From: Alloascoidea africana
Lineage: Eukaryota; Ascomycota; Alloascoideomycetes; Alloascoideales; Alloascoideaceae
NCBI GenBank assembly: GCA_030581615.1
Contig: JAKTTT010000029.1
Span: forward strand, 124,001-188,000
DNA length: 64,000 bases
Reading direction: 5' to 3'
The stretch's first letter is position 1. Every line of letters starts with the position of its first letter. A model generated the notes under the pieces. The model searched no databases and had not been told where the DNA came from. It saw nothing but the letters and a program-made list of their open reading frames with translations. The translations under genes and the position numbers were made by a program. This document shows, one piece after another, positions 22,310-58,972 of the stretch.

Positions 22310-23112
22310 TTAACAAGTAACGTCTTGAGTTGCTCTGGAGTTCAACAATAGAGCAACAATCAATCCATAAAGACCCAAAACTTCGGCAAAAATGAGAATC
22401 AAAATCATCCCTACAAACAGTCTTGGTTGTTGTGCTGTTCCTCTCACGCCGGCATCACCAACAATGCCAATGGCAAATCCAGCTGCGAGTCCAGAAAGTC
22501 CCACTGATAAACCTGCGCCCAATTGGATAAAACCGGTGTATAGTGCCTGTTGTTGCTTCAATGAGTCTGTGACGAGAACAGACACAACAAGACCGTAGAT
22601 AGCAATAATACCGGCCATAATGACGGGGACAATGTTTTTCACCAACAGATCTGGACGAAGAACACATGTTGCACAGATTCCGACGCCAGATTTAGCTGTG
22701 CCATAGGCAGCTCCAAAGCCTATAAAAAAACAAGAATAGAAGCGGTTAATAATGGAATATGGCTGGAACCCAGGAAGATGGGGGTTTACTCACAGGTAAA
22801 GATGATGGCAGCAGCACACCCGATAGAGCCAAAAAATGGCTTCAATACTTGTGGTTAGATGCTTTATTCCAATCCAGATCTCGAGCTTATAAACATACAG
22901 CATAAACAGGACTAAAAATGTTGTTAGTTTCTTTTTGTTTAATTAAACCACCCACCACAATGGAAAAAGAAAGATAAGGACAAAAAATGAACCAAGGACG
23001 ACGACAGATGCCGGAGACACAGAGAGAACATGCACCCACAAGCAGTTGAGAAAAAAGCAATTCCCATTACAAATTGCACTTTCAACAAGAAAACTTACCA
23101 AAGATCGGACAT
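22310..23112 (-). CDS. VMA3: V-ATPase proteolipid subunit c
   Basis: Four exons, 23112..23099 (14 nt), 22911..22899 (13 nt), 22839..22794 (46 nt) and 22719..22310, give 160 residues, the exact length of S. cerevisiae Vma3. The spliced start reads [20 protein letters not shown]; the microexon supplies PVYA. The rest contains four membrane helices and the essential proton-carrying glutamate in [13 protein letters not shown]. Introns of 187, 59 and 74 nt use GTAAGT, GTATGT and GTGAGT, with branch sites ACTAAC and TCTAAC for the first two. The [20 protein letters not shown] region is closer to Vma3 (c) than to Vma11 or Vma16. The c-ring turns with the rotor of V1Vo in vacuole and endosome membranes. 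Confidence 0.96.
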
Positions 23113-36740: not shown

Positions 36741-38156
36741 TTACATTCTGGGTCTTTTTGAGACTTGAGATTGGGGATCCATTGGCATTCTACCATTCGT
36801 GTGTGACAAGGGAGAAGGGGTTGGATTTGGATTTGGATTTGAATTTGGATTTGGATTTGGATGTTGGCCATTCATGTTGATATCTCCGTTATCGCGTTTC
36901 AAACCAGAACTTATCGAAGGAGTTGAATTGGCGCTTGTGTTGGTGTTAGCACTTGTGTTTGTAATGTTGGTGGAAGAAGAAGTGGTGCTGGGGGAAGGCT
37001 GAGGGTAGCGATATCCGTAGTAACTGCCGTTGGACTGATGATGATGGGACTCGTGAGACTGAGACAAGTCCTGGGGCTGTTTGTGTAGGTGATTTGGATA
37101 AGGAATTTGCTTTTGGTTTTGGTTTTGGTTCTGGTTTTGGTTCAGGTCTCTCAGCATGTTCATATTCATATTCACAGGTATGTTTGTGTTTGGATTCATG
37201 TTATAAGGGACGTTCATGTTCATATTCATGTTATAGGGCACATTCATGTTCATGTTCATGTTCATGTTCATCTGCATGTTTGGGTCCGATCCGTTTGGCA
37301 TGTTTTGCGCCAACGGGGGCAGCGGGCCCTTGGAGTAGAGCTGGTGCGGATAGTAGGGATGGAAGTACGGGTTCTGGCTCTGATTCTGGCTCTGGCTCTG
37401 GGGGAGTGCCTGATTCTGGCTGTAGAAGCCGTCCTCGGGGGCCGCGTTGACAGATCCAGATCCGTTCACGGTGCCAACAGAGGCCACAGCGGCGGCCGCG
37501 GCGGCAGCAGAGGCCGAGGCCGTGGACCCAGGGGCCATGGAGCCAGGGGCCATGGAGCCAGGGGCCATGGACCCAGCGGAACCAGAAGAGCCAGAGGAAC
37601 CTGAGGAACCTGAAGAACCTGAAGAACCTGAGGAACCCGCGGCGGCCGCTGTAGGATCCTGATAGTGGCCCGAGGGCAGCTCTGCGCCGGTGTAGAGCAG
37701 AGTCTTGACAAAGCTGGACGGGTTGTAGAGAAAGGACTTGATATCGTGGACAAACAGCGGGTACAGCAGGTCGACGATGTTCTCTTTGTTCGCAAGCCTC
37801 AGGGCTCTGTCGTAGGGGATCCACACGCCCTTGAGGTTCATGGAGCCGAACTTGACAACGTGCCTGTTTTTCTCCATTTTGAGCAGGCCGTCGCGGCGGC
37901 CGCGGGTGATGTCGCGGACCACGTTGAGCAGCTTGGTGCCGTTGATGTAGTTGTTGTCTTCTCTGCGGGCGACGGACACGCCGTTGACCTGGACCTGGAA
38001 GCACACGGTGCCCTCGTCCTCCCACAGCGTGGTCGTGACGTTGGGCTTGATGCCCGGGGGAAATCGCTGGCCCGAGGGGTCGAAGATGGTGGTGACTCGC
38101 ACGGGCTGCTGCTCGAAGGGCTCGGGGCCCAGGAAGGAGGCCGGGGGAGCACGCAT
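36741..38156 (-). CDS. EFG1: APSES transcription factor (Efg1/Sok2/Phd1/StuA type)
   Basis: The 471-residue frame begins almost directly with an APSES DNA-binding domain (about 38-150): [40 protein letters not shown], and [20 protein letters not shown], with the KilA-N-like wing-helix core. The remainder is low complexity: Ser-Gly, Ala, Gln, Met-Asn and Asn-Pro runs, including MNMN repeats (about 295-335). Efg1, Sok2, Phd1 and StuA act below PKA to control filamentous growth and development; with one gene visible I cannot decide orthology, so the symbol is provisional. GC content rises strongly across the APSES-coding half (37.3-38.2 kb). The start is the first ATG after an in-frame stop about 50 nt upstream. 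Confidence 0.93.
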
Positions 38157-39236
38157 GGGGAACAGATGGGCAGAACTCGCAACTCGCTCGCGACGGAGGA
38201 GGTTTTACGTGCTGCTCTGCTCTGCCGCTTCGTGCCCGGTCCGCGATGAGGATGAGGAGGTACGGAGGTGATCCGCAAAACCTTTCCTCTGCTGCTCTGT
38301 GCTCTGCTGCTCTGCTGCTCTCGTGGAGCCCTGCCCGGCGTTGCGGCGTTGCGGCGTTGAGTCCAGCTCTGGCGGTCTGTCCAGGCCCCGTCCCATGCCC
38401 CGTCTCCCTCTGGCTGTCTGCTCCCCTGGCGGTGTCCCCGGCGGTGTCCCCGGCTCGATCCCTCCTCGTGTGTCTTCGTTTCGAGAGACCCGGCTCGAAA
38501 ATCCTCGAGTTGCCTCAAAAAGCCTCAAAAGCCCTTGCTCTAGCTCGTTTCCCAAGGCTTTTCTGTTTTTGCCTTTTTGCTTTGCCTTTTTGCCTTTGCC
38601 TTTTTACTTAGTCCCCTTCGCTTCGGCTCGTTCTGATAACGTCATCATTCCTTACCCTTTTCTCCCTCCTTGGTATATGCTCAAAACGTCTACCATGACC
38701 TCATGATGACATCCCACAACCCAAACTTTATAAAACTTTGTGAACTTTGTAAACTTTGTAAAGCCTAGTCGATCAATCATCGTCGATCGATACTGCTGTC
38801 TCATGCTCATGCCGATATACCTAATCCCTCATCCTAATCCTTATCCTTTATCCGTGAAAATCCTGACACTTTAACCTACTACACTTTTGATTGCATTGCA
38901 TTGACATAGATAGAAAACCATATACTCATAATAAATTGACCTATTAAGAATGAATGTAAACCGGATCAAAAAACAATAATAATTTTTCTTTCTTGAATTA
39001 ATAAAAAAGGAACCTCAAACAATGGGGTATGATATGGACAAACAAAAAAAACAGACCAGCAATAGATATAGACTTTTTCGTTTTTTATCAAAAAAAAACA
39101 AAAAACCAAAAAAAAAAATGATGATTAAATCCAAAGTTCCTTGAGAAACAATTAAAAAAGAAAAAAAAAAAATCAAAATCAAATCAACAGCAATATAACA
39201 AAACAAAATAATAAAGATGTTTTCATAATGATGATG
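38157..39236. other. Upstream region of the APSES gene
   Basis: About 1.1 kb. The first 400 bp are GC-rich with short overlapping frames on both strands (possible upstream ORFs in a long leader, as is common for this gene family). The rest is AT-rich with A-runs near 39088-39172. No gene is supported. Confidence 0.5.
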
Positions 39237-57569: not shown

Positions 57570-58972
57570 ATGGGTATTAAAGGTATGTAGACTGTGAGTA
57601 GCAGGTTCATGAAGAGGTTACTAATTTGTGCAACCAGGACTTACACACTTGATCGCTGATAATGCACCAGCTGCCATTAAAGATTGCGAGATCAAGAGCT
57701 TTTTTGGCAGAAAAGTTGCAATTGTAAGTGAATTTATCATCAATCATTTTATCTTTGGTTTTTTTTCCCCCCTGATACTGACATTTGAATTGGCACATAG
57801 GATGCGTATGCTTTTCACAACTGTTTGCTTGACCCGGTTGAGCGATAGATCTAACTTTTAAAGTTCCATGTCTCTGTACCAATTCCTTATAGCGGTGCGA
57901 CAACAGGATGGGTCTCAGCTCTCAAATGAAACTGGAGAAACCACGAGGTAAGCTCATTTTTAAAAGATTATAAAAGGAGATGACTGACTTTAAGAATTCA
58001 AGTCATCTGATGGGCATGTTCTACCGAACGTTGCGAATCGTTGATAACGGTATCAAACCGGTCTATGTTTTCGATGGACGGCCTCCAGTTATGAAAAATG
58101 GAACTTTAGCAAAGAGACTACAGAGAAGAGATGAAGCTCAAAAGCAACAGGACGCAATTAGAGAAACAGGTACAGCAGAAGAAGTCGCGCGATTTGAACG
58201 ACGAATGGTAAAAGTCACCAAGGAACAAAACGAAGAAGCAAAAAAGCTACTCAAGTTGATGGGCATACCGTACGTGAATGCTCCTTGTGAAGCTGAGGCA
58301 CAATGTGCTATTTTAGCAAAAAGCGGGAAGGTATACGCTTCTGCCTCCGAAGATATGGACACACTCTGTTTTGGCACACCCTATTTACTTCGGCATTTGA
58401 CTTTTTCCGAAGCCAGAAAGATGCCCATTTCAGAAATCAGTTATGAAAAGGCCCTTGAGGGACTGGAATTAACGTATGACGAGTTTATCGATCTCTGTAT
58501 GCTGTTAGGATGCGATTATCTTGATCCAGTTAAAGGTGTTGGTCCTGTTACAGCCTTTAAATTGATCAAACAATTTAAGACTCTGGATGCTATTGTAGAC
58601 CATATAAGGAGCAACCCAGATTCAAAGTATAAGATTCCCGAAGACTGGCCGTATAAAGAAGCAAGGGAACTATTTACAAAACCCGATGTCTTGGATGCGA
58701 AGGACATTGAGTTTAAATGGGAACAGCCTGATGAAGAAGGACTAATTGACTTTCTGGTTAAGGAGAAAGGTTTTGCGGAGGATAGGGTTCGTGGTGGCAT
58801 TGAGCGTTTAAAAAAGCAATTGAAAAAAGCGCCTCAGGGAAGACTGGATAGTTTCCTGAAAGCTGTTCCGAAAACTAAAGAACAACTAGAAGCAGAAAAA
58901 AAGAGGAAGGCTAAAGGAAATGGGAAAGCTAAAGGGAAGAATGCAAAGAATGTAAAGAAAGCAAGAAGATAG
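57570..58972 (+). CDS. RAD27: Flap endonuclease FEN1
   Basis: Five exons, 57570..57582 (13 nt), 57638..57723 (86 nt), 57801..57805 (5 nt), 57864..57947 (84 nt) and 58003..58972, give 385 residues (S. cerevisiae Rad27: 382). The 5-nt exon GATGC encodes catalytic Asp34 and part of Ala35 and restores VAI-DA-SMSLYQF. Further active-site acids are in [20 protein letters not shown] and GCDYLD; the H2TH motif [17 protein letters not shown] and the PCNA-binding QGRLDSFL follow, with a Lys-rich tail. Introns of 55, 77, 58 and 55 nt use GTATGT, GTAAGT, GTATGC and GTAAGC with ACTAAT, ACTGAC, TCTAAC and ACTGAC branches. It cuts 5' flaps in Okazaki-fragment maturation and long-patch base-excision repair. 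An MCB box precedes it. Confidence 0.97.

Follow-up and report, generated by a model that had tools for sequence, protein, structure and literature searches.

A predicted five-nucleotide exon encoding Asp34 of the replication nuclease FEN1 in Alloascoidea africana

Can an exon of only five nucleotides encode part of the active site of a replication nuclease, and how would such an exon be spliced? The question is raised by the FEN1 gene in a 64,000-nucleotide stretch of Alloascoidea africana DNA (the window), for which a first-pass annotation had proposed a microexon, GATGC, at 57801-57805, between a TAG acceptor and a GTATGC donor. The sequence and our enumeration of splice models agree on this placement. 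The modeled gene occupies 57570-58972 on the forward strand and comprises five coding exons encoding 385 residues, as supported by splice-model enumeration and spliced alignment to human FEN1, the latter reaching 58861, where the query ends. Exon 1 (57570-57582, 13 nt) encodes MGIK and the first base of Gly5. It is followed by intron 1 (57583-57637, 55 nt; GTATGT...CTAAT...CAG) and by exon 2 (57638-57723, 86 nt), which ends with the Ile33 codon, in phase 0.

Intron 2 (57724-57800, 77 nt) has a GTAAGT donor, a TAG acceptor, and a putative branch-site match, CTGAC (57778-57782), whose A lies 19 nt before the intron end. The microexon then supplies the Asp34 codon together with positions 1 and 2 of the Ala35 codon, in the context GGCACATAG|GATGC|GTATGCTTTT, with CATAG before it and GTATGC after it. 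Intron 3 (57806-57863, 58 nt) combines a weak donor, TGC|GTATGC, with an AAG acceptor and a putative branch-site match, CTAAC (57851-57855), whose A lies 9 nt before the intron end. Exon 4 (57864-57947, 84 nt) opens with the last base of Ala35 and is separated by intron 4 (57948-58002, 55 nt; GTAAGC...CTGAC...AAG) from exon 5 (58003-58972, 970 nt including the stop codon). With a length of 5 nt and a spliceosomal intron on each side, GATGC falls well within the size range of microexons (internal exons of about 30 nt or less), as judged from sequence and homology.

The identity of the gene is clear from its product. The 385-residue protein matches human FEN1 with an E-value of 1.3e-133 and 200 identities over 345 aligned positions, and the alignment is free of gaps around Asp34. 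This residue lies in the five-nucleotide exon, as the first-pass annotation had it. It contains both an XPG_N (120.5 bits) and an XPG_I (109.8 bits) domain and retains 9/9 checked residues (seven acidic, one Lys, and one Arg) of what we take to be the human FEN1 active site. In the whole genome, the XPG_I profile matches four loci and the XPG_N profile five. The window locus is the sole FEN1 among the XPG loci read, the three others being RAD2-, EXO1-, and GEN1-like; a fifth XPG_N locus, on C1 (46.7 bits), lies outside that set. We looked for introns at the same motif in these paralogues, and the EXO1-like, GEN1-like, and RAD2-like frames run uninterrupted across it.

We then asked whether the protein requires the five-nucleotide exon. 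From 20 donors and 12 acceptors, we enumerated every way of joining exon 2 to exon 4 by a single GT/GC..AG intron or by two, with a minimum intron length of 25 nt; 19 one-intron and 160 two-intron models stayed open. A 12-residue stretch was kept by 3/19 and 43/160 of them, respectively. GATGC served as an exon in six of these 43; the other five, which use earlier donors, delete conserved residues before Asp34. The FEN1 core VAIDASMSLYQF, with VAIDAS, was kept in a single one of the 179 open models, the one that uses the GATGC exon as described above. On the exon and its frame, the first-pass annotation was right.

Domain scores point in the same direction. XPG_N scores 124.4 bits with the five-nucleotide model, compared with 104.9 and 112.5 bits for two alternatives. 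Asp34 alone does not single out the five-nucleotide exon, because the 112.5-bit alternative, a 26-nt exon ending at a GC donor, keeps Asp34 too. What singles it out among the predicted models is the intact block around that residue.

The same five exons were returned by our own spliced aligner with human FEN1 as the query (score 1056). When the microexon splice sites were barred in this motif-scored alignment, the score fell to 939.0 (acceptor), 970.5 (donor), and 930.5 (both, a loss of 125.5); with the acceptor alone barred, the best local alignment simply starts at GATGC. Under a flat intron cost, with no motif beyond GT and AG, the alignment scored 1018 with the exon and 981 with it barred, a loss of 37. 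The aligner accepted GT donors only, and GC donors entered through the enumeration alone. Together, the VAIDAS models, the barring losses, and the XPG_N scores indicate that GATGC is needed for both the frame and the conserved protein block.

To set these scores against chance, we shuffled the stretch between exons 2 and 4 1000 times, preserving composition and keeping the first 6 and last 14 bases. The real score of 192.5 was reached in none of the 1000 shuffles (mean 141.7, maximum 179.5). In 531 shuffles, however, the best model included an internal exon no longer than 15 nt, though never at the real score. A microexon call is therefore weak evidence in itself, and it is the score and the exact residues that count. 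From the gene models, alignments, and shuffles, we conclude that the proposal is confirmed at the level of sequence and homology and that GATGC is most likely a real five-nucleotide coding exon of the FEN1 gene.

How well do the flanking splice sites fit the habits of this genome? A search for introns by coding statistics returned none, codon bias being too weak (0.13 bits per codon), and a search for introns within open frames gave 27 candidates, against one in the reversed sequence, with mixed donors and, in part, poor lengths and coding scores. The reference set was therefore rebuilt from spliced alignments of small GTPases. It holds 47 introns from 20 loci (L026-L045), placed by our own aligner; the loci were chosen out of 70 matches for looking split, and an outer piece at the very start of L034 is doubtful. 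The reference donors are GTATGT (8), GTAAGA (6), GTAAGT (5), GTGAGT (4), and GTATGC (4), with the rest fewer. CTRAY occurs within the last 30 nt of 30/47 introns, and nine end in AAG. At donor position +4, A (20 introns) and T (21 of the 47) are evenly split; in budding yeasts, this position has been linked to METTL16 and SNRNP27K (PMC10581693).

Ranked with hand-set motif scores, and hence leaning on our own choices, FEN1 donors 1, 2, and 4 exceed 47, 26, and 44 of the 47 reference donors, while donor 3 exceeds just three. Its predicted pairing with U1 (-2.1 kcal/mol) beats that of four reference donors. A candidate U1 snRNA, compact at about 148 nt, was located at L046 1501-1648, with the 5' end ATACTTACCTG; its Rfam match of 64.9 bits (E-value 7e-15) is under the gathering score of 69.5. 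We also considered RNA folding as a helper of splicing and rejected it: the stretch is less folded than its shuffles (z +1.91), all 200 of which fold at least as well.

Use of the exon is supported by the presence of its donor hexamer, GTATGC, at 4/47 reference introns and of AAG, the acceptor of intron 3, at 9/47. Against inclusion by default stand the intron 3 donor, which is among the poorest, and the putative branch site of that intron, just 9 nt short of its 3' end. The poor pairing of U1 on the exon side of donor 3 follows from the Asp-Ala codons, which fix those bases.

On balance, we consider it likely that GATGC is included by default, with the two introns removed sequentially, intron 2 first, and with failures at intron 3 appearing as retention. 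Five nucleotides would be too few to accommodate both the factors that bind the 3' splice site of intron 2 and U1 on intron 3. With no room for two complexes, the introns would be removed in turn through intron definition, a mode proposed in PMC3925392 to be prevalent in fungi, where failed recognition typically leads to retention. Intron 2, with its GTAAGT donor, CTGAC, and TAG, would most likely go first and fuse GATGC to exon 2, so that the weak donor TGC|GTATGC would then act from a 91-nt exon. The microexon itself is probably what remained between introns that had come to be near neighbors.

The order of removal is a less secure part of this proposal. Upstream-first removal is expected because intron 2 has the better donor, and we lean towards it. 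According to PMC10250204, strong upstream sites accompany upstream-first removal in animals and plants. The same source reports, against this order, that SRRM4-dependent animal microexons are mostly spliced downstream-first (58 versus 26 percent), with a non-significant tendency of the downstream-first ones towards shorter lengths. Weak U1 pairing, including on the exon side, accompanies dependence on U2AF in fission yeast (PMC8624252), which suggests that intron 3, with its weak donor, would likely be the limiting step. Failures would then be expected mainly as intron 3 retention, with a stop after 48 residues and a truncated null protein, rather than as skipping. The predicted products of skipping (54 residues), intron 2 retention (69), and intron 3 retention (48) all stop before the catalytic core.

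The FEN1 microexon is most likely not alone, since spliced alignments predict further very short exons elsewhere in the genome. A second microexon lies in the same window, in a V-ATPase proteolipid gene (VMA3-like, with an ATP-synt_C domain) on the minus strand. Its exons map to 23099-23112 (a 14-nt first exon), 22899-22911, 22794-22839, and 22313-22719, and the 13-nt exon at 22899-22911 raises the alignment score from 691.5 to 728.5. Elsewhere, a Rho4-like gene (L045, C6:14050-15200) has a predicted 6-nt exon, GAATAT, encoding Glu-Tyr (711.5 with it and 685.0 without it) and a 19-nt exon (526.0 without it). Two exons, 20 and 27 nt long, are predicted in a Rab5-like gene (L041, C44:16400-17500; score 568.0 with them, 512.5 and 514.5 without). 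The 6-nt exon is the weakest case, because a length divisible by three gives no frame argument and because the sequence of the closest reference protein was entered by hand.

By hand count over the 20 small-GTPase loci, 6/27 internal exons measure 30 nt or less and 1/27 measures 15 nt or less; the loci having been chosen for looking split, these shares provide no estimate for the genome. Since very short exons are called in three other conserved genes, no device specific to FEN1 is needed. The first-pass annotation called microexons this short rare in yeasts. That may be true of classical budding yeasts, but the present genome is not poor in introns, 47 having been called in the 20 loci chosen.

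Several features of the surrounding genome were noted in passing. The small GTPases include look-alike pairs (L038/L039, L042/L043, L027/L030, L031/L044, L034/L035, and L028/L029), and these six pairs, compared near their 3' ends, are 72.8 to 84.5 percent identical in DNA. RPS18-type loci number three (C9, C29, and C31), and FEN1 appears single. The GTPase pairs and the RPS18-type loci hint at an old genome duplication or at wide gene-family growth. The window also holds an open frame of 487 residues (36744-38204, minus strand) with a KilA-N domain, the domain of APSES transcription factors.

Four other readings of the locus were weighed against default inclusion with sequential removal. The one that survives best, though we regard it as improbable, is that the weak donor of intron 3 makes its removal slow or dependent on conditions and thereby sets the level of FEN1. 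The low rank of donor 3 (above only 3/47) and its U1 duplex of -2.1 kcal/mol would fit this reading, as would the association of weak U1 pairing with U2AF dependence in fission yeast (PMC8624252). The Asp-Ala codons, however, fix the exon bases, so that a weak donor needs no regulatory reason; the GTATGC hexamer recurs in 4/47 introns, and U1 pairing at the donor of the 13-nt VMA3 exon is equally weak (-1.9 kcal/mol). If such control did operate, the same logic could fit other codon-constrained tiny exons in a microexon-rich genome.

A much less probable reading is the one put forward initially, in which FEN1 is switched on or off by cued inclusion or skipping of GATGC. One part of it stands: the length of the exon is not a multiple of three, and skipping is predicted to shift the frame and yield a product of 54 residues. 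A regulated fungal microexon also exists, in Trichoderma Xlr2 (PMC11121469). Yet the short flanking introns, 77 and 58 nt, favor pairing of splice sites across each intron, the failures proposed for fungi take the form of retention (PMC3925392), which is also null here, and three other genes of this genome, unrelated and with housekeeping roles, have very short exons too. We saw no sign of regulated skipping, and the switch finds no support.

Two further readings question the exon itself, and we give each of them very little credence. In the first, the GC donor at 57827 is used and GATGC becomes part of a longer exon, 57801-57826. Although this model is among the open two-intron models and keeps Asp34, it inserts YAFHNCF into the conserved block and accounts for the lower XPG_N score (112.5 versus 124.4 bits). 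In the second, five bases have been lost at the start of exon 4, in the assembly or in one allele, and the upstream GATGC is a coincidence; the motif AG|GAYGC|GT arose in only 48 of 200,000 shuffles, and a branch-site match and a TAG acceptor are correctly placed before GATGC. Removal of 57724-57863 whole, as a stwintron, was rejected, as it shifts the frame (54 residues) and the five coding bases are required.

If confirmed by cDNA, GATGC would be among the shortest exons proposed in a fungus, and it would carry an active-site residue of a replication nuclease. A genome with called exons of 5, 6, 13, 19, 20, and 27 nt in four genes could serve as a convenient one-celled system for studying how the spliceosome copes with exons that leave no room for two complexes. 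It also calls for caution, as catalytic residues may drop out of automatic gene models here.

Exons this small are already known in plants, animals, and fungi. The fission-yeast cgs2 microexon, in a different gene, resembles that of FEN1 in having a short intron on either side and in belonging to a yeast that uses intron definition; in experiments attributed to Romfo et al. (2000; cited in PMC11121469 and PMC7138796), its skipping reportedly could not be induced. In our search of open-licence papers, we found none joining FEN1 and microexons and none joining microexons and Lipomyces; in PMC3990503, the mention of microexons concerns a mapping option only. A scan of viral_contigs for relatives gave 20 pattern matches, with no relative among them.

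Among the closest parallels, two constitutive plant microexons, one of 1 nt in Arabidopsis APC11 (PMC4674806) and the other of 5 nt in rice Os08t0562700 (PMC8831610), likewise restore the frame of a protein that needs them, and both were missed by annotation. They belong to other genes and are RNA-confirmed, and the APC11 exon is conserved across land plants, whereas the FEN1 exon is known from its DNA. The 5-nt exons of Drosophila Ubx, as cited in PMC8042270, match it in length and differ in gene and kingdom.

Among fungi, the Trichoderma Xlr2 microexon (PMC11121469) shares with that of FEN1 the presence of metal-binding residues, in its case two zinc-binding cysteines; unlike the FEN1 exon, it encodes six residues and is included in a glucose-dependent manner. 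Exon 2 of Rhodosporidium DAO1 (6 nt; PMC4624585) and the 6-bp exons of Phanerochaete P450 genes (PMC1184071) come close in size, although they belong to other genes and their length, greater by one base, is divisible by three. Finally, the stwintrons of Lipomyces (PMC7138796) resemble the FEN1 arrangement in having two packed introns that are removed successively by intron definition. There, however, the inner intron splits a splice signal of the outer one, whereas the predicted FEN1 arrangement keeps five coding bases in the mRNA.
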